From the NCBI GenBank assembly GCA_036375715.1, contig DASVBS010000039.1, forward strand, positions 1 to 37,257: a stretch of 37,257 nucleotides of DNA, read 5' to 3'. Below are positions 24,760 through 37,240 of the stretch, in pieces. Below the pieces are notes generated by a model, which was given only the letters and a program-made list of their open reading frames with translations, did not search any database and was not told the origin of the DNA. Source of the DNA: Longimicrobiaceae bacterium. Lineage in GTDB: Bacteria > Gemmatimonadota > Gemmatimonadetes > Longimicrobiales > Longimicrobiaceae. The stretch's first letter is position 1. Each line of letters opens with the position of its first letter. The position numbers and the translations under genes were made by a program.

Positions 24760-24790
24760 GTTATGATAACTATTGAGTTATGGATGTCAA
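24760..24790 (-). promoter_or_regulatory. Promoter and operator-like dyads of the arsR-SRPBCC operon
   Basis: On the minus strand, TTGACA (24790-24785) and TATCAT (24768-24763) are 16 bp apart. The palindrome GTTATGATAAC (24760-24770) overlaps the -10, and AACCTGACGGTT (24751-24762) follows just downstream. Both are plausible autoregulatory sites for the ArsR protein. Confidence 0.6.
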
Positions 24791-25476
24791 GTGCTTTTGT
24801 CGAGAATGGAACTGACGGCGCGGTGCTGTGCCGGGGATGGCACAGGTCGCTGCGGAAGCCGACCAGCGGTAAGTTCGTGCAGGTCACGGCGGGGCAAAAC
24901 CACACCTGCGCACTGCGGGACGACGGGGTCGTCGAGTGCTGGTATCTGAATCAATTCGGTCAGGCGCCGCCCACCCGCAGCGCGAGCAGGGGACGCTTCG
25001 TCGCGGTGGAAGCCGGCGCCTGGCATACCTGCGGCTTGCGGGACGACGGCGTAGCGGAATGCTGGGGCGGCAACGGCTGGGGACAGGCACCGGCCACACA
25101 GACCGCCTCGGTGGGCACCTACCGCCAGCTGAGCGGCGGCTACTACTTCAACTGTGCGGTCCGGAGCGACCACGCCCTGGAATGCTGGGGGAAGAACCGG
25201 GACCGCGAGGCCCGCTCCGAGCAGCGCATCGTGTTCACCACCCTGCCGCTGGATCCGAGCCTCGTGGGCAGCAGCTATCCCATCGCCGCCACCGGCGGCG
25301 GGTCCGGGAATCCCCTGAACTTCAGGAGCCTCACTCCGGAGGTGTGCACGGTCTCCGAGGGGATGGTCTCGGCGGATGCCCCGGGCACCTGCACCGTTGC
25401 GGCCAATCAGGCCGGGAACTGGAGGTACTTCCCTGCCCCGGAGGTGCGGGTCAGCTTCCAGGTCGAGGCGCCGTAG
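24763..25476 (+). pseudogene. 5'-truncated tandem copy of the RCC1-like propeller gene
   Basis: From about 24805 to 25495 the DNA is nearly identical to 27107-27797 (offset 2300-2303). It encodes the last part of blade 4, then blades 5-7 and the C-terminal Ig-like domain. The signal peptide, the PKD domain and blades 1-3 are missing. The apparent start (ATG 24763) lies inside the arsR promoter and reads MITIELWMSSAFVENG before entering the homologous part. It would give an incomplete, non-exported propeller, so it is most likely a remnant left when the front 1.3 kb of a former full-length copy was deleted. Its terminator hairpin (25585-25613) is also shared with the intact copy. Confidence 0.8.
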
Positions 25477-25829: not shown

Positions 25830-27803
25830 ATGCCTACGATCTTCGCGCGGTTCTGCAGGGCGGCACTGTGCATTCTGGCGGTTGCGGGAAGCAGTGCCTG
25901 CTCCGACAACTCCATCTCCGATCCCCAGTTGGACCCCGAGGCTTCGGGCGAGAATCGCACGGTCGCGAACGCACTCACCGTGAACATTACCGACGTACAA
26001 ACCGCGTCCGGCTACAGATACGTGGTTGCGACGGGGCTTGCGGACAGTGCAAAGGCCTACATCGATCGCCCCTGGGTCTACGACAACGTTCCCCGCTTCC
26101 TCCAGGGCGCCACCTACGTCCGGACACGACAACAAGACCGCACCTTAGACGACCCCGCCCTGCTCTCCTTCCGCATTGATCGGGAAGCGGTGGTCTTCCT
26201 CACCGTGGACCCGGGATTCGATAGACCGTGGCTCGAGGAGATTGCCGGCTTCAAGCCGGTTCGGGATAACCTTTACATCCCCAAGCAGTACGGCAACAGC
26301 CCCGGGGAGCGATCCGGTCACCTGCTCTACGCGAAGGTCTACCCTGCGAAAGCGCGCATCGTGCTGGGACCGAACAGGACAGACGGCAGCGACGACATGT
26401 ACACCGTCATCGTTCGACCCACCGCCGATGGGGTTCTCTCCGCCGGTGCGGGGGGACCGTACAGCGCGGCCGCCGGCACCATGGTCCAGCTCGTCGGGAC
26501 CGCCGAGACCGCCTCGGAGTACGATCTCGCGTTGGATTACACCTGGGATTTCGGGGATGGGCACACCGGGGTTGGTCCGAGAGCTGGACATACCTACGAG
26601 TCTCCCGGCAGCTATACCGCTCGGTTCGAAGTCACCGATGCGATGGGCAATACCGTGACCGCCACGGCGCCGGTCAGCATCAGCAGCTCTGAGCCGTATG
26701 CCGTGTCGCAGGTGAGCACGGGCGACGGCTACGCCTGCGCGGTGCGCGCAAGCGGAGTCGTCAACTGCTGGGGGCGATCCGATTATGGGGAGGCTCCAGC
26801 CGAAAAACGGGCATCCGTTGGACGCTTCGTGCAGGTGGCCGCCCACAAGGACCACACCTGCGCCCTGCGCGACGACGGCGCAGTGGAATGCTGGGGCAAC
26901 AATGTCGATGGACGGGCCCCGGCGCTCAGGACCGCCAGGACCGGAGTCTTCACACAAGTCGACGTCGGAGAGTTCCACAGCTGCGCACTACGGGATGACG
27001 GCGACAGGGAGTGCTGGGGTTCTTCCACCGAATGGTGGCTTTTTGCTGTAGGGCAGCACAGGGGCTATTACACCCAGCTCGCATTCGGCAACCGGCATGC
27101 GTGCGCGGTGAGAACCGATGGCGCGGTCGATTGCTGGGGATGGCACAGGTCGGTGCGGCAGCCGACCAGCGGCAAGTTCGTGCAGGTCGCGGCGGGGCAG
27201 AACCACACCTGCGCCCTGCGGGACGACGGGGTCGTCGAGTGCTGGTATCTGAATCAGTTCGGTCAGGCGCCGCCCACCCGCAGCGCGACCACGGGACGCT
27301 TCGTCGCGGTGGAAGCCGGCGCCACGCATACCTGCGGCTTGCGGGACGACGGCGTAGTGGAATGCTGGGGCGGCAACGGCTGGGGTCAGGCACCGGCCAC
27401 ACAGACCGCCTCGGTGGGCACCTATCGCCAGCTGAGCGGCGGAAGCTACTTCAACTGCGCGGTCCGGAGCGACCACGCCTTCGAATGCTGGGGGAGGAAC
27501 AAGGACGGTGAGGGGCGCTCGGAGCAGCGCATCGTGTTCACGTCTCTGCCGCCCATGGCCTACGTGGGCGGCAGCTATCCCATCGCCGCCGAGGGCGGTG
27601 CATCCGGCAACCCCGTGGAGCTCACCAGCCTCACTCCCGAGGTATGCACGGTCTCCGAGGGGATGGTCTCGGCGGATGCCCCGGGCACCTGCACCGTTGC
27701 GGCCAATCAGGCCGGGAACTGGAGGTACTTCCCTGCCCCGGAGGTGCGGATGAGCTTCCAGGTCGAAGCGCCGCAGACGGCCGGCGCAGGAAATGGAACC
27801 TGA
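25830..27803 (+). CDS. Lipoprotein with PKD domain and seven-bladed RCC1-like propeller
   Basis: A 657-residue surface protein. The signal ends in AGSSAC (lipoprotein Cys). Residues about 45-200 are an unrecognised N-terminal domain; about 205-285 form a PKD domain (AGGPYSAAAGTMVQLVG, YTWDFGDGHTG, HTYESPGSYTARFEV). Then come seven repeats of about 36-42 residues with the pattern C-A-L-R-D-D-G-x-V-E-C-W-G, starting at about 297. Seven repeats make one complete RCC1-type propeller. Nearly every blade carries the same Cys pair, suggesting one disulfide per blade. A C-terminal Ig-like domain (LTPEVCTVSEGMVSADAPGTC, VAANQAGNWRYFPAPEV) closes it. Such proteins are usually cell-surface binding or adhesion proteins; the partner is unknown. 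Confidence 0.85.
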   Translation: MPTIFARFCRAALCILAVAGSSACSDNSISDPQLDPEASGENRTVANALTVNITDVQTASGYRYVVATGLADSAKAYIDRPWVYDNVPRFLQGATYVRTRQQDRTLDDPALLSFRIDREAVVFLTVDPGFDRPWLEEIAGFKPVRDNLYIPKQYGNSPGERSGHLLYAKVYPAKARIVLGPNRTDGSDDMYTVIVRPTADGVLSAGAGGPYSAAAGTMVQLVGTAETASEYDLALDYTWDFGDGHTGVGPRAGHTYESPGSYTARFEVTDAMGNTVTATAPVSISSSEPYAVSQVSTGDGYACAVRASGVVNCWGRSDYGEAPAEKRASVGRFVQVAAHKDHTCALRDDGAVECWGNNVDGRAPALRTARTGVFTQVDVGEFHSCALRDDGDRECWGSSTEWWLFAVGQHRGYYTQLAFGNRHACAVRTDGAVDCWGWHRSVRQPTSGKFVQVAAGQNHTCALRDDGVVECWYLNQFGQAPPTRSATTGRFVAVEAGATHTCGLRDDGVVECWGGNGWGQAPATQTASVGTYRQLSGGSYFNCAVRSDHAFECWGRNKDGEGRSEQRIVFTSLPPMAYVGGSYPIAAEGGASGNPVELTSLTPEVCTVSEGMVSADAPGTCTVAANQAGNWRYFPAPEVRMSFQVEAPQTAGAGNGT

Positions 27804-30580: not shown

Positions 30581-30762
30581 GGGCCCGGCGCCGAGACCGC
30601 CAGCCGCCGGCCGAGCCGCATACGAGCGACGGTCCGCCGGCTGACGCCGCGCCGCCGCCACGCTCGGAAGGGGACAGCCGCTCGATCGCGCCGTCTCCAG
30701 TCCCAGCAGGTTGTTTTACCCCGAAATGTTACCCCCGGCACTCTGATCGGCAGAAACGAAGA

Positions 30763-30794
30763 AGGCGCCATGCCGCGAATGCGGCATGGCGCCT
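30763..30794 (-). terminator. Original terminator of the tRNA-Ile gene
   Basis: AGGCGCCATGCCGC (30763-30776) pairs perfectly with GCGGCATGGCGCCT (30781-30794) around GAAT. It lies 15 bp beyond the 3' end of the tRNA piece on the minus strand, where a tRNA terminator would be. The preceding 30581-30762 shows nothing coding. Confidence 0.7.
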
Positions 30795-30808
30795 CGATTT
30801 CTTATTGA

Positions 30809-30851
30809 TGGGCCTGGGTGGACTCGAACCACCGACCTCACGCTTATCAGG
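30809..30851 (-). pseudogene. tRNA-Ile(GAT) 3' half, probable attachment site
   Basis: On the minus strand this reads CCTGATAAGCGTGAGG, then TCGGTGGTTCGAGTCCACC, then CAGGCCCA. This is the anticodon loop with GAT, the 3' anticodon stem, the variable loop, a complete T-arm (GGTTCGAGTCC) and the 3' acceptor strand with discriminator A. No D-arm or 5' acceptor strand follows at higher coordinates. A piece running exactly from the anticodon loop to the 3' end is the usual crossover segment of tyrosine-integrase elements. With the old terminator on its left, the inserted island should lie to the right. Confidence 0.8.
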
Positions 30852-30970
30852 ATAGCGAAACCAGCGCGCTCGCGCGCAAGACCGCTGAAAACCTAGATTC
30901 CTTCTCGACGCCAGACCGCTTCCGCCAGCAGTTTCAGGGTGCGTTTGGCACCACGAATGACACCACGAAG

Positions 30971-31261
30971 ATGGGCGACTCGCTCGAGTTCGACAACCTT
31001 TCCGCCTACCTGGCCGCCGAGGACGAAGAGGCGCGCACCCGGCTCGCCCAGGAGCATGGCCGAAGCCTGGGCGACTGGTACGACCCCTCCGAATTCTGCT
31101 GGCAGGTTGAACCGCCGTTCGAGCGCTGCAGCGCGTGCTGGTCCTGGCGGCGCTTCCCGATCGCACAGCGCCACTTGGGCTTCGGTTGGAAGCGGTTGTG
31201 CGAGCTCCGGTGTGAGTGCGGGTGCCACGCGCGGGAGCACGAAGTGCGACGCTCTACCTAG
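30971..31261 (+). CDS. Small Cys-rich protein at the island edge
   Basis: A 96-codon frame from ATG 30971. The N-terminal half is acidic and helical (DNLSAYLAAEDEEARTRLAQ). The C-terminal half carries six Cys and two His (FCWQVEPPFERCSACWSWRR, then LCELRCECGCHAREHE), suggesting a zinc-binding knuckle. I recognise no family, and there is no Shine-Dalgarno. The upstream in-frame codons are read-through of the tRNA piece and should not be counted. Confidence 0.42.
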   Translation: MGDSLEFDNLSAYLAAEDEEARTRLAQEHGRSLGDWYDPSEFCWQVEPPFERCSACWSWRRFPIAQRHLGFGWKRLCELRCECGCHAREHEVRRST

Positions 31262-31380: not shown

Positions 31381-31776
31381 ATGGGTCGCCGGAGCAGAGG
31401 TAAGCGCGCCGGCCGGGCGCGGCCAAAACAGGTGCAACACCCGGTATCGCACTCTCCCCAAAGTCCGACCGCGTCCTGGGCCGACGTCGAGGTTCTCCAC
31501 AGACATGAGAAATGGGGATGGGCCCAGCTCAGAGCCGCAGCCGTCGGAACGACTCAGCTGTTTCTTGCCATTCTGATCCTCATCGTGCCGGGGACCTTGT
31601 GGGAGCTGATACTGACCGTCCTCCCTCCGGTCGGCATGATCGACCGAATTCTCGTGCACGCCTTGTTGTTCGTGGGTTCGCTGGTGTTTTTCCTGCAGTT
31701 CGCCTACACGATCTGCGTGGGAGCCGCACTCAGCTTGAAGAAATCTAGGCGGGCCCTTAAAGAAGGAGGTGACTAG
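31381..31776 (+). CDS. Small membrane protein A of a coupled pair
   Basis: A 131-residue protein starting at ATG 31381 with a basic N-terminus (MGRRSRGKRAGRARPKQ). Two hydrophobic segments at about 57-80 (LFLAILILIVPGTLWELILTV) and 88-115 (ILVHALLFVGSLVFFLQFAY) are followed by a basic tail. It ends TAG, sharing its G with the GTG of the next gene. I recognise no family. Its position on the island beside restriction-modification and ShosTA-like genes makes a defence or mobile-element role possible, but the sequence gives no direct proof. Confidence 0.6.
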   Translation: MGRRSRGKRAGRARPKQVQHPVSHSPQSPTASWADVEVLHRHEKWGWAQLRAAAVGTTQLFLAILILIVPGTLWELILTVLPPVGMIDRILVHALLFVGSLVFFLQFAYTICVGAALSLKKSRRALKEGGD

Positions 31777-32396
31777 TGTCTGCTGCCGTCCATCTGACGC
31801 CGATTGAGCGGCTCGCGTTTGACCTGCCGAGACACGCGCTCAGCTCCTTCAACGCTAGCCTCAAGTCGTACGTCCTGACCATCGTGATCCTGGGTGCGGA
31901 GTTGATGCTGATCCGATCCGACTATCTTCTTCTCGTCCCTCTCGGCATCGTCATCTTCGCCATCCATGGCTCCGTCGCACTGTCCCTGGTCCGGCATGTG
32001 GTGGCGCTGCTCAGAGACATCCGGCGAGGCATCGATGGGGAGGACCCGCTGTACCTCACGAGAGAGCGAGTCGCTGACGCTATGTCTCGTAGGGAAGAGA
32101 ACCGCAAACTGCGCTGGGCGACCCGTCTCATCCTCTTCCTTGGATATGCAACGCCGATCTATCCGCTCTCGAAGTACGTGTTTCTACAGGCTTACGACGT
32201 GCACAGTGAGTACTTTGAGGCCGCAGACGAGAGCAAAGCGAGGCAACGGTGGCAGGGGGAACTCGGCTTGGGCGCGGAGGTAGAGGTGCACTCTGCTCCG
32301 CCCGCCAACCAGGCTTGGACCAACGTCGCTCGGGCGAGCGCGGCGTACGCAGTCAGTTCCTTCAACGATCCAGGCCGCGCTCGGGCGCACGCCTGA
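31776..32396 (+). CDS. Membrane protein B of a coupled pair
   Basis: A 206-residue protein starting at GTG 31776, with a very strong AAGGAGGTGA ending about 5 nt upstream inside the previous gene, and a 1-nt stop/start overlap. Hydrophobic segments: YVLTIVILGAELMLI and YLLLVPLGIVIFAIHGSVAL (together about 30-72) and WATRLILFLGYATPIYPLSK (about 113-132). Between them is a charged, probably cytoplasmic stretch (LLRDIRRGIDGEDPLYLTRE). The C-terminal 65 residues are soluble and charged. No family recognised. A strong bidirectional terminator follows. Confidence 0.65.
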   Translation: MSAAVHLTPIERLAFDLPRHALSSFNASLKSYVLTIVILGAELMLIRSDYLLLVPLGIVIFAIHGSVALSLVRHVVALLRDIRRGIDGEDPLYLTRERVADAMSRREENRKLRWATRLILFLGYATPIYPLSKYVFLQAYDVHSEYFEAADESKARQRWQGELGLGAEVEVHSAPPANQAWTNVARASAAYAVSSFNDPGRARAHA

Positions 32397-32464: not shown

Positions 32465-32502
32465 AAAAGGAGCCCCGGCCATTTTGAGCCGGGGCTCCTT
32501 TT
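32465..32502. terminator. Strong bidirectional intrinsic terminator
   Basis: AAAAGGAGCCCCGGC (32465-32479) pairs perfectly with GCCGGGGCTCCTTTT (32488-32502) around an 8-nt loop, with T-runs on both strands. It separates the membrane-protein pair from the convergent restriction-modification genes. Confidence 0.9.
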
Positions 32503-32554: not shown

Positions 32555-33289
32555 CTACTGAGCGCGGCGTATGCTACCCTCCACCGCCTCATAAAAATCG
32601 GGGTTCCGCTCAGCGACAGCCTCCACCAGCTTATCGAAAACCCTCTCCAGCGACACAGGCGTCAAATGGTCGCCCACCTCGTATGCTGTCACACTTGAGC
32701 CAAACGGACTGGCGTCGAGAAGCAGGATGTACAACACCTCGAACTGCTCATCTCGGCCTGCTGGATCGCCGCGCCCTGTAAAAATGCGCAGGCGGTTGTG
32801 GGCATTCAGAAAAGTCGAACGTCGCTTCAGCGTGTCGTCGGTTTGAGCGCCCTTGTCCAAGAAGATCAGGCCGGCAATGACGGCGTAGGGGAACCGCCGG
32901 TGCAGCGTCACCGCTTCCATCAGCATGTCGCCCCGGCGATTGATCAGGTTCTTCTGGAAGTTGTTGCTCCTGCCGTCCCTGAAGTTGATGGACTTGATGG
33001 ATACGGCGAGCAGCAGGCCGGATTCTTCGGTCGCCCAGGTCACATCAACCTTTTTCGCACCGATCCCGCCGCTCATTCGACGCTCCGCCCCCGAACCCCC
33101 CAAAACGCCAGGGGGCGCGGGCCTCGCTCCTCTCATCCCGCGGTGGCGCAGCTCCTCCGCGACGGCGAGCGCAACGACCTCCGAAACCTTCTGCGAGTAT
33201 TGCTGCTTGAGATGGCGAGGGGCGTTGTCGTCGGGCTTGGGTGGAAGGCCGTTGAGTGCGTTGATCAGGAGGTCGTCAATTCTTGCCAC
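32555..33289 (-). CDS. Putative type II restriction endonuclease, PD-(D/E)XK-like
   Basis: A 244-residue protein directly behind the adenine methyltransferase gene; the two overlap by 14 bp. The start is set at GTG 33289, which has GGAGGAAG just upstream. The likely nuclease core is GGIGAKKVDVTW (Asp82) followed by TEESGLLLAVSIKSINFRDG (Lys99), a D-x(n)-x-x-K arrangement of beta strands. A helical stretch (NNFQKNLINRRGDMLMEAVT) and a hydrophobic strand (YAVIAGLIFLD) follow. Gene order and motif make it the cognate restriction enzyme. Recognition sequence unknown; identification rests partly on context. Confidence 0.65.
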   Translation of the reverse strand: MARIDDLLINALNGLPPKPDDNAPRHLKQQYSQKVSEVVALAVAEELRHRGMRGARPAPPGVLGGSGAERRMSGGIGAKKVDVTWATEESGLLLAVSIKSINFRDGRSNNFQKNLINRRGDMLMEAVTLHRRFPYAVIAGLIFLDKGAQTDDTLKRRSTFLNAHNRLRIFTGRGDPAGRDEQFEVLYILLLDASPFGSSVTAYEVGDHLTPVSLERVFDKLVEAVAERNPDFYEAVEGSIRRAQ

Positions 33290-34931
33290 CGCTTCCTCCG
33301 CCCCTGGTTGCTCGCCGCGCAAACAAGAACTCGCGGGCCCCGCGGATCACCTGTATGTCACGATGGGTGAGGCCCATGCCCTTGGTCAAGATCACTCGGT
33401 CCACCAGCTTTACGGCCGCGGCCAGGTTATTCTGGCGGAGCGCTTTGGCCAACTGCGGCCGCAAGGCTCGGAGCTCCGTAGCACACGCGTTCACGAGCTC
33501 CGGACTGGGCACAGGGAGCTTGTCGGCCTCGCGCGGCTCCAGCTTCAGCATGCCACCGCCGTACGCACGACCGACCATTTCCGCCCCTAGCATGGTGAAA
33601 CTGTTAATCGCGGCCATCGGCAGCAGGTCCTGCCCCAGTTGTCGCACCTCGCGCCGCAGGAAGACGCCGTATAGCGAATTCAGGTGGCGCAGCCTGGCCT
33701 GATTGGTAACCAGGCGGGGCCGCTCATAGTCCATGTAGGTCAGCAGGAGGTCCGGCACCTGGACGAGAGGCACGCGGTACCAGGGTGTTCGCACCCTGCA
33801 CTTGTAAGCCAGGTGAACCCCAGCCGCTTCACCTTCTGCCACGTAATTGGCGGCCGCCTTCGACAGAGGATTCTTCCGGGGATAGAACAGGTACCCCGCG
33901 GCGCCGGCTCTGACCAGTTCCTGCCACGCCCTTTCTGTGAAGGTCAACCCCCGAAGGTGGCGTGAGCCCGGTGGTGAGATCCGCACCAGGTCACGCTCCG
34001 GCAGGCCGCTGGCGGCGACCTGCTCGCCCGTGCGGCTGAAATAGCGGTTGTTGCCGGTCACAGCCCCCAGCGATGTTTCGCCCCAGGCAAGCAGGGGTGA
34101 AATCTCTTCGCGGTTTGTCAGCTCGCGATAGAGATCGACTGCTGTGTCATCGAGGAGCGCTGGGGTCCACTTTCCTTCGGCGTCCGGCTGGTACTGTTCC
34201 CAGCCTTCGACGTCTAGAGATGCAAGCGCAGCTGCATCTCGCACCTGCAGTACTTCGAAATGCGGCGCCGGCCCCATCCCCTCGGCGAGGAGTAGCACCA
34301 CATCCTCCAGCACTCCCGGAAACACGAGCTCCTCGAACAAGATCAGCCGGATCCGACCGAAACGGTTCAGCAGGAAGCGCCGTACCTCGGCAGCGTAGTT
34401 GACTGTCAGGAGTTCGGCGGGGAGCACCAGCGCCATGCGGCCGTCAGTCTTCAGGAAGTCGCTCGCATGAATGACGAACGGCGCCCAGGAGCTGGCAAGC
34501 CGGGTTAGCCGCACCCCGTGACGCAGTGCTCGCTCGCTGGCCCGGACCCGAGCCTCGCCAGTGAACGATTGGTAACGGACGTAGGGGGGATTGCCCACGA
34601 CCGCATCATACGATCCGGGAGCTTCAAACTCGAAGAAGTCCCCTGCGATAACGGAGCCCTGCAGCCCGGCGCCGGCCAGGAGCTCGCGTGCGCGAGCAGC
34701 AGATGGTTCGTGCAGTTCGATGCCCCGCAGCTGATCGCCATGCACCGGCCGGCCGCCAGCCAGCTCCTGCAACCGCTCACCTGCTGGGATCAGGAAACTC
34801 GCTTCGCCACACGAGGGCTCTAGGACCTTGTCAGATGGCGTGCGCACCGCCCATGCAACTAGGTGCCGGCTCAGCTCCGGCGGGGTAAAAAACGCACCGC
34901 GTTGCTTCCGTTGCCGCTGCGAGTCCGACAC
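33276..34931 (-). CDS. N6-adenine DNA methyltransferase (type II, Eco57I/TaqI-like)
   Basis: A 551-residue enzyme that should methylate adenine in a specific DNA sequence, using S-adenosylmethionine. Motif X RGAFFTPPELSRHLVAW is at about residues 11-27, motif I VLEPSCGEASFL at 36-47, and the catalytic NPPY (motif IV, YDAVVGNPPYVRYQ) at 114-117; this order marks a gamma-class enzyme. The C-terminal half (about 260-500), with ISPPGSRHLRGLTFTERAW, AGYLFYPRK and RVPLVQVPDLLLTYM, resembles the target-recognition region of Eco57I-like enzymes. GTG 34931 is preferred because AGGTGAG lies about 10 nt upstream; GTG 34970 is possible. The partner nuclease overlaps its 3' end. Confidence 0.92.
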   Translation of the reverse strand: MSDSQRQRKQRGAFFTPPELSRHLVAWAVRTPSDKVLEPSCGEASFLIPAGERLQELAGGRPVHGDQLRGIELHEPSAARARELLAGAGLQGSVIAGDFFEFEAPGSYDAVVGNPPYVRYQSFTGEARVRASERALRHGVRLTRLASSWAPFVIHASDFLKTDGRMALVLPAELLTVNYAAEVRRFLLNRFGRIRLILFEELVFPGVLEDVVLLLAEGMGPAPHFEVLQVRDAAALASLDVEGWEQYQPDAEGKWTPALLDDTAVDLYRELTNREEISPLLAWGETSLGAVTGNNRYFSRTGEQVAASGLPERDLVRISPPGSRHLRGLTFTERAWQELVRAGAAGYLFYPRKNPLSKAAANYVAEGEAAGVHLAYKCRVRTPWYRVPLVQVPDLLLTYMDYERPRLVTNQARLRHLNSLYGVFLRREVRQLGQDLLPMAAINSFTMLGAEMVGRAYGGGMLKLEPREADKLPVPSPELVNACATELRALRPQLAKALRQNNLAAAVKLVDRVILTKGMGLTHRDIQVIRGAREFLFARRATRGGGSGGKN

Positions 34932-35131
34932 TGGGATTTGCTCACCTGGAGTGAGTGGACCGCGGCGCACAGAGACGTTAATGGCCCATGCCGCGGCTTA
35001 AGACGAGACCGTCGTCGCCAAGCAAACCTAAGCGCCTCGACCCAACCTGCAATAGACCTTGCGCTCCTAGCGTCCGGGGGGGCACGGGCGTACTATCTTT
35101 CTCCTTCACCCATGCCCACGGACGATCCAGG

Positions 35132-35466: not shown

Positions 35467-35501
35467 TTGTCGGGCCGGCTGATCTTCGGTATATCTTCGG
35501 T
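35467..35501 (+). promoter_or_regulatory. Promoter with overlapping direct repeats before the DprA-like gene
   Basis: TTGTCG (35467-35472) and TATATC (35490-35495) are 17 bp apart, about 45 bp before ATG 35539. ATCTTCGGT occurs twice in direct orientation (35482-35490 and 35493-35501), one helical turn apart and covering the -10. This is a plausible autoregulatory site. Confidence 0.6.
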
Positions 35502-35538
35502 GGGGTCGGAACTCGGCCATTCGACACGAGGGAACACC

Positions 35539-36480
35539 ATGCACCCACGTGATCTAGTCCGCGGCCATCGCGAACACGAGTTGGCCGCTATCGTTGCGCT
35601 CCTACGGAAGCAGGTCGTTACCCCTTATCGGCTATCCGCGATGCTTGAGTATCGCGGATCCGCTGTGGCGCTCGCCCAGCTCTCGGAGGAAGACCGGCTG
35701 TTCAAGCCCTCCGCGCCGACACACGATCTGATCGGCGCGGTGACGCCAGAGGATCTAACGGCTTCGATTCGCGACGTTCGTCGCTGGCTGCAAGCGGGCC
35801 GTGATGTGCGCTCGGTACTCGACGATCACTACCCTCGCTCGCTGCGCGAGATTTTCAACCGGCCGCCTCTCCTCTTCATCGAGGGGCAGTTTGACGAGGC
35901 CCGCGACTCCCATTCTGTGGCCATTGTGGGGGCGAGGCGCGCCAGCTCGGAGGGAAGGCGCCGGGCCGCACGGATGAGCCGTGCAGCGGTGGAGGCCGGC
36001 CTATGCGTCATGTCGGGGCTCGCGGCCGGGATCGATACGGCCGCGCACTGGGCGGCCCTTGAGGCAGACGGTCGCACGGTCGCGGTAATGGGAACCGGGA
36101 TCGATCGAATCTACCCCGCGGAGAATCGCCCGCTCGCCGACGCTATTATGTCCGCTGGAGGGTGTTTGATCTCCCAGTTCTTCCCGTCGCAGCAACCCAC
36201 GCGGTGGACGTTCCCGAATCGGAACATCACCATGTCGGGGCTGGCGCTGGCGACGATCGTCATTGAGGCGAGCGAGACGTCAGGTGCGCGGATGCAGGCT
36301 CGGGTGGCACTGCAGCACGGCAGAACGGTGTTCCTGCTGGAGTCGCTCGTGAACGAGCACGCCTGGGCGCGCAAGTACGTGACCGAGGGTGCCTACGGCA
36401 CGCACGCCATCATGATCTCTTCTCCGGAGGAGGTGATTGAGCGCCTCGCGGCTGCCCCCGCTATGAGCCTCGTGGCGTAG
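35539..36480 (+). CDS. DprA/Smf-family protein, ShosA-like antitoxin candidate
   Basis: A 313-residue protein with the DprA Rossmann domain: SVAIVGARRASSEG (about 126-139), VMSGLAAGIDTAAHWAALEA (157-176), TVAVMGTGIDRIYPAENRPLA, then WTFPNRNITMSGLALATIVI and the SGARMQARVALQHGR segment. The N-terminal 110 residues are helical and lack an obvious SAM domain; no C-terminal DprA winged helix is seen. DprA normally loads RecA on incoming single-stranded DNA. Here it is followed 4 nt later by a phosphoribosyltransferase-domain gene. That pairing is the hallmark of ShosTA, where the DprA-like protein is the antitoxin. Such an isolated variant on an island is unlikely to be the housekeeping copy. Confidence 0.85.
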   Translation: MHPRDLVRGHREHELAAIVALLRKQVVTPYRLSAMLEYRGSAVALAQLSEEDRLFKPSAPTHDLIGAVTPEDLTASIRDVRRWLQAGRDVRSVLDDHYPRSLREIFNRPPLLFIEGQFDEARDSHSVAIVGARRASSEGRRRAARMSRAAVEAGLCVMSGLAAGIDTAAHWAALEADGRTVAVMGTGIDRIYPAENRPLADAIMSAGGCLISQFFPSQQPTRWTFPNRNITMSGLALATIVIEASETSGARMQARVALQHGRTVFLLESLVNEHAWARKYVTEGAYGTHAIMISSPEEVIERLAAAPAMSLVA

Positions 36481-36484
36481 CTGC

Positions 36485-37240
36485 ATGGCGGACGCCCGAC
36501 AAGAATACGAGAACATTCGCGTCCTGCTCCGTAGCATCCCCCGGTTCGAGGCTTATCAGGTCTGTGATGAATGCCTCGGACCGGTCAACGGACACTCTAG
36601 CTGCCTCTCTTGCCATTTGATTTTCCGGGCTGCCCCGTGGCAGCTCAGCGGCGCCGTGGTTCCGCTCTCCGTAGCGCAGAACCCGAGCCCCTGGTATACG
36701 CGTCTCGTAGGGTACAAAGGAGCACGACCCGAGTTCGGGCTGCCGATGGCGGCCCTGCTCATGCTGTCGGTGTTGCATCATCGATCCCGAATTGAGGAGC
36801 TTCTCGGCGGGGCGCCGGATGCCTTCACGGTCGTCCCCTCCACCCGCGGTGTCCCCTTCAACAAGCAGCCGCTCCGCAACGTCCTCAACCTGATCGTTCC
36901 TTGGCGCAGACAGCTGGTGCAGCTGCTTGAGCACGATCCGAACGTGAAGGTCCCTCGCCGGAGTTACCGGCCAGAGGCCTTTCGGCCCGTTGGGTCAGTT
37001 GAAGGTGCGCGAGTGGTGCTAGTCGAAGACCTGTGGGTATCCGGCGCGAAGGCGGTCAGTGCGGCGGGAAGCTTGATCCAGGCAGGCGCTCACCGAGTTG
37101 TCATCGTGCCGATCGCCCGGATGATCGATCCGCCAGGATCTGCGTTCTTCGCGGCGGACCATCCTTACTTCGAGTGGATGATGGAAGAGCACGATTACAA
37201 ACGGTGGCCACGGGAGGGGGTGCCCCGCTACGACTTCTGA
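36485..37240 (+). CDS. Zinc-ribbon phosphoribosyltransferase, ShosT-like toxin candidate
   Basis: A 251-residue protein. Residues 27-43 form a four-cysteine zinc ribbon (CDEC...CLSC, with Cys27, Cys30, Cys40 and Cys43), as in ComF. The type I phosphoribosyltransferase core includes TVVPSTRGVPFNKQPLRNVL and the PRPP loop RVVLVEDLWVSGAKAVSAAG (about 176-195; the acidic pair is Glu181-Asp182). The second loop position reads WVSGAKA instead of the usual TTGAT. The gene starts 4 nt after the DprA-like gene, so they are cotranscribed. In ShosTA the PRTase protein is the toxin that halts growth on phage infection. A competence-type ComF role is the alternative, but no competence genes are nearby. 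The coding sequence is complete, ending 17 bp before the window edge. Confidence 0.8.
   Translation: MADARQEYENIRVLLRSIPRFEAYQVCDECLGPVNGHSSCLSCHLIFRAAPWQLSGAVVPLSVAQNPSPWYTRLVGYKGARPEFGLPMAALLMLSVLHHRSRIEELLGGAPDAFTVVPSTRGVPFNKQPLRNVLNLIVPWRRQLVQLLEHDPNVKVPRRSYRPEAFRPVGSVEGARVVLVEDLWVSGAKAVSAAGSLIQAGAHRVVIVPIARMIDPPGSAFFAADHPYFEWMMEEHDYKRWPREGVPRYDF

Follow-up and report, generated by a model that had tools for sequence, protein, structure and literature searches.

Two adjacent genes of the window, as the whole 37,257-nucleotide stretch of Longimicrobiaceae DNA analyzed here, one entire contig of a draft genome, is called, form a real, coupled pair that encodes small, unrecognised inner-membrane proteins. 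According to alignments, profiles and GC/GC3 values, the two genes (ORF1 and ORF2; Table 1) are kept as a pair and are foreign in composition. They recur in a second genome, G007, which belongs to the same family and to another genus, and behave as a horizontally moved two-gene unit. Most likely the products make up an accessory inner-membrane complex, for which an anti-phage function is the leading guess, with a probability of about 0.4.

Table 1. Features of the gene pair and its surroundings in the window
Feature	Position	Strand	Remarks
Hairpin terminator	30762..30795	-	15-pair stem, directly downstream of the tRNA remnant
tRNA-Ile(GAT) gene, 3' part only, 5' part missing	30809..30851	-	Probable attachment edge of the island
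Small Cys-rich ORF	30971..31261	+	96 aa; upstream of the pair; without Pfam or PADLOC match
ORF1	31381..31776	+	131 aa; membrane protein with two helices and a basic extension at the N-terminus; probable homologue L002:1953-2246 (G007)
Exact Shine-Dalgarno sequence AAGGAGGTGA for ORF2	31763..31772	+	Inside ORF1
ORF2	31776..32396	+	206 aa; membrane protein, loop between helices 2 and 3 conserved; homologous to L002:1324-1956 (G007)
Bidirectional hairpin terminator	32465..32502	.	Separates the pair from the convergent RM genes
Probable restriction endonuclease gene	32555..33322	-	Adjoins the methylase; no family match; best codon score in this frame; role suggested by position; context
Eco57I-type adenine methyltransferase	33276..34970	-	PADLOC MTase_II, 1e-166; context
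DprA/ShosA-like protein	35467..36480	+	PADLOC 1.9e-66; context
Phosphoribosyltransferase-like protein	36485..37240	+	Weak ShosT match, E 0.029; context

ORF1 and ORF2 overlap by one base, 31776 (TAG/GTG, i.e., TAGTG), and the GGAGG core of AAGGAGGTGA, of which the window holds one further exact copy on both strands taken together, lies six bases 5' of the GTG start codon of ORF2. The inverted repeat after ORF2 (32465-32479/32488-32502) is paired at 15 of 15 positions and, because A and T runs lie inside it, should terminate transcription on both strands. Its 43-base hairpin reaches -31 kcal/mol, a value matched by 2 of 1861 segments of 44 bases slid along the contig. Thus, the stop/start base shared by the two genes, the strong internal ribosome binding site and the strong bidirectional terminator named in the original prediction are all borne out. 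In a codon model trained on the genes of the window, ORF2 (0.177) and the membrane part of ORF1 (0.161) score best of the six frames. The first ~50 codons of ORF1 score -0.113 and are not the best of the six; since they fail in this model, the basic N-terminus, likewise part of the original prediction, is the least certain portion of the protein, and the extension is absent from the homologue in G007. Some of it must be translated if a usual start codon is used, because the GTG at 31432 is the last in-frame ATG, GTG or TTG ahead of the first helix. Hydropathy agrees with the two helices proposed for ORF1; of the approximately three proposed for ORF2, two are clear and the third is weak (1.21).

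A second overlapping pair of homologous genes is present in G007. The ORF2 protein (P0002) has matches in 5 of 99 genomes at an E value of 0.01, namely its own genome, G007, and three with long unrelated frames. The match in G007 is a short membrane gene, whose start overlaps by four bases with a 97-aa two-helix gene, the counterpart of ORF1. Local alignment of ORF2 with its homologue scores 102, compared with 40.7 ± 8.8 in 2000 block shuffles preserving local hydropathy, none of which reaches the observed value, and this makes a solid case for homology. The alignment of the ORF1 proteins scores 42 versus 27.1 ± 4.5 in the same type of shuffles (reached by 11 of 2000). This suggestion of homology is weak by itself and is accepted because the gene order is shared with the pair in G007. 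In the cross comparisons, the observed score is reached by 1171 and 378 of the 2000 shuffles. Between the two ORF2 proteins, the alignment begins at helix 1, passes over the charged loop that follows helix 2 and ends at helix 3; its best conserved portion, L-x-D-x-x-R-x-[IL]-x-G-x-x-P-x-x-L-T, runs through this loop.

Profile searches recovered the pair from the same two genomes and show it to be rare. The two-row ORF2 profile matched 2 of 154 genomes of the order (E 0.001; the window genome and G007), 4 of 394 genomes of the class (E 0.001) and 6 of 395 genomes of the phylum (E 0.01), the latter two sets consisting of the same two genomes plus weak matches in long frames; both genomes necessarily match profiles built from their own sequences, and the three samples overlap. 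The ORF1 profile matched 2 of 395 genomes at E 0.001, and these are identical to the two found with ORF2. Among 195 relatives searched with a protein of the G007 pair (P0003), the homologous pair was found in G007 only, together with one weak match in a 963-aa frame of G005. As a search control, RsmA was detected in 20 of 21 genomes. Eight other genomes (G030, G038, G052, G228, G146, G255, G261, and G005) gave matches below E 0.01 that lie in open frames of 633 to 1130 aa and were treated as chance; seven of these eight frames (G005 excepted) were read, and none of them resembles ORF2 in being short. Two of the long-frame matches hold a stretch that we take to resemble an RND pump.

In G007 the pair occupies a stretch of ~1.4 kb with a GC content of 0.50-0.59, compared with about 0.7 around it, between rsmA and the moa operon. 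The GC3 of its two genes is 0.53 and 0.52, that of most neighbors near 0.9. Here the pair is a foreign low-GC islet, not part of the core genome, and this location points to a horizontally moved unit. Consistently, the same genes are found at unrelated places, a tRNA-Ile edge in the window and the rsmA-moa junction in G007, with shifts in GC and GC3. Of 21 relatives, 12 have the gene that follows the islet (101 aa), among them all ten genomes searched from the genus of G007. No empty site was found in the relatives of G007; in the 11 other genomes with rsmA and the 101-aa gene the best matches are on different contigs, and the junction may therefore be special to G007. The GC contrast to the relatives is one of degree. 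In 13 relatives, the sequence downstream of rsmA has single segments of 250 bases as low as 0.56, compared with five successive segments at 0.50-0.56 in G007; in 10 relatives, the sequence ahead of the 101-aa gene goes no lower than 0.59 (in an eleventh, hardly any sequence precedes this gene). In the profiled part of the 20-kb stretch of G007 (2 to 17 kb), GC dips at one other place, at 3.5-4.5 kb, which contains a short TIR gene (118 aa; Pfam 2e-8; ThsB-like 1.3e-5) and a PDC-M50A-like gene (1.2e-6). This second low-GC two-gene islet (L014 3479-4329), 10 kb from the homologous pair, is likely a defense islet. Two head-to-tail 20-base repeats, possibly an operator or an insertion scar, lie ~135 bases upstream of the pair in G007 (L014 15667-15706).

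In the window, the pair is located immediately inward of a broken tRNA gene that is likely the edge of an island. A tRNA caller reported no tRNA in the window. The tRNA-Ile remnant has matches in 24 of 31 relatives (own genome included), most of which stop at query base 54-57 and one at 63, and most end where the window sequence leaves the tRNA. ARAGORN called tRNA-Ile(gat) at 6 of 8 matching loci scanned. The window's own assembly yielded no intact tRNA-Ile; its other matches are two tRNA-Met genes and the terminator hairpin itself. Integration would have taken place at tRNA-Ile, and the island most likely lies to the right, because a terminator follows the remnant on the left. Its far edge was not seen up to the contig end at 37257, and no integrase was recognised in the subset of window ORFs whose proteins were scanned. 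The GC3 of the pair (0.72 and 0.74) resembles that of four genes to the right (0.73-0.77), compared with 0.75-0.94 in ten genes to the left. With the Eco57I-type methylase and the ShosA-like DprA within 5 kb, the defense island of the original prediction is supported for the window. A survey of the neighbors of homologues, covering the two pairs, showed that the window pair sits beside the RM and ShosA-like genes, and that the G007 pair is next to rsmA and moa genes, not RM/TA, with the TIR and PDC-M50A pair 10 kb off. Direct adjacency to defense genes thus exists at one of two sites only.

Some neighbors deserve separate mention. The small Cys-rich ORF between the tRNA remnant and the pair has CxxC and CxC motifs and a GC3 of 0.87, and a longer frame of it (30818-31261) scores as coding. 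The 255-aa gene that overlaps the Eco57I-type methylase has no family or PDB sequence match; it is probably the restriction enzyme of this methylase and possibly represents an undescribed endonuclease family. The two genes at the contig end (35467-37240) probably form a divergent ShosTA-type system.

Family searches agreed with the original prediction that no family is recognisable. ORF1 and ORF2 had no match in Pfam even at E 10, matches at chance level only in PHROGs, nothing near a cut-off in NCBIfam, and no family at E ≤ 1 in PADLOC-DB 2.0.0 (P0001, P0002); the proteins of the G007 pair (P0003, P0004) matched no PADLOC family at E ≤ 0.1. No TA family reached the cut-off in Pfam or NCBIfam, nor did the pair proteins match a transport, immunity or enzyme family or a sensor or enzyme domain. 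The helix-hairpin region of the ORF1 homologue in G007 resembles the bPH_10 YqeB-like domain (PF23494, E 0.0084), but with 16 bits versus a cut-off of 27, and ORF1 of the window lacks this match. No relative was detected in viral contigs of IMG/VR (queries A1, P0003, and P0002) or, by tblastn with P0002 and P0003, in 50,697 phage records; the same two queries gave a single plasmid match (E 7), within a peptidase gene. Genome contig scans for P0002 and P0003 by short exact peptide patterns, whose reach is close relatives only, found none either. The ORF2 profile had one match in the PDB sequences (E 0.94). Models were predicted by AlphaFold without alignment. That of ORF2 (pLDDT 43) was too poor to use and was excluded from the fold search; that of ORF1 (pLDDT 70) is a long helical hairpin with one PDB match (E 7.4). 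Searches of open-licence full texts turned up no named pair of this kind.

Both products would be made in a coupled fashion from one presumed transcript of the moved cassette, and the coupled translation suggests that they form one inner-membrane complex. ORF1 probably is a helical hairpin with both ends inside, because the distribution of charges fits this topology in both homologues: 11 basic residues precede and 5 follow the hairpin compared to 1 in the turn, and the corresponding numbers in G007 are 4 and 3 versus 0. Both ORF2 proteins have a strongly basic loop between helices 2 and 3 (12 basic residues in the window, 11 in G007), which is therefore likely cytoplasmic; helix 3 is weak in G007, too (1.43). 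In anti-phage defense, this membrane effector might be held inactive and disturb the membrane once the conserved loop is triggered during infection. Such a defense by a membrane effector is the leading reading because the pair lacks an enzyme domain, appears foreign at each of its two sites and has defense genes as neighbors in the window. A horizontally moved cassette for a membrane complex in stand-alone anti-phage defense is given the same probability of about 0.4. It is doubtful whether the pair goes as far as being a new system of two membrane proteins only, in which a hairpin and a three-helix partner with the cytoplasmic loop as trigger would sense infection directly at the membrane, with no separate enzyme or nucleotide signal.

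Several points speak against a role in defense. None of the four pair proteins matches a PADLOC model, a sensor or enzyme domain is lacking, no relative was found on phages, plasmids or in IMG/VR, and the pair in G007 is directly flanked by rsmA and moa genes instead of defense genes. The missing defense matches and the housekeeping neighbors of the sole other pair would equally suit an accessory membrane complex for envelope stress, export of small solutes or peptides, or bacteriocin immunity, found on islands by chance; genomic islands carry many non-defense passengers. This alternative ranks close behind defense. However, the proteins match no transport, immunity or enzyme family, and a lone foreign two-gene islet without partners suits a self-sufficient system better than part of a transporter. 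An addiction pair, in which one of the small membrane proteins is a toxin neutralised by the other, would account for the tight coupling, the strong ribosome site of the second gene and the self-contained mobile unit, but is unlikely, as TA family matches and a DNA-binding part for autoregulation are missing. To our knowledge, no TA layout combines such sizes with a three-helix second protein.

Still less probable is that the pair keeps phage DNA from entering at the inner membrane, as a system of the superinfection-exclusion type and of prophage or satellite origin. Two small inner-membrane proteins without enzyme domain beside a tRNA attachment remnant would be compatible with it, but PHROGs, the phage records and IMG/VR contain no relative. 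Finally, GC-rich DNA can hold chance ORFs, and the window has many spurious long ones; moreover, the N-terminal extension of ORF1 is not coding-like. The homologous overlapping pair in another genus, with its ORF2 alignment score far above the shuffles, makes this explanation very unlikely, indeed nearly negligible, and the codon scores of ORF2 and the membrane part of ORF1 also contradict it.

Among known systems, the closest are two-gene anti-phage systems carried by satellites that include a transmembrane protein, for example the HAD-like hydrolase and transmembrane protein of P4 satellites (PMC9122126). They resemble the pair in having two genes, mobility and a small membrane protein, but differ in that both members of the pair are membrane proteins without enzyme or sensor domain; the sequences were compared via the PADLOC scan only. 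ShosTA (DprA-like protein and phosphoribosyltransferase) shares the island with the window pair, but its proteins are unrelated, and the G007 pair has no ShosTA in the part examined. The pair represents a new family within a known sort of object, small mobile operons for membrane proteins, and may reasonably be considered a candidate, as yet unproven, for a new defense system of bacteria. If anti-phage, it would be a minimal membrane-only system that current family libraries miss and that only its gene pairing and foreign composition revealed; otherwise, a mobile membrane-protein pair without a name has still been defined. Elsewhere in the window, a 237-aa ORF (24763-25476) matches, nearly letter by letter, the greater part of the end of the next, RCC1-like gene (25830-27803), as a partial duplication.
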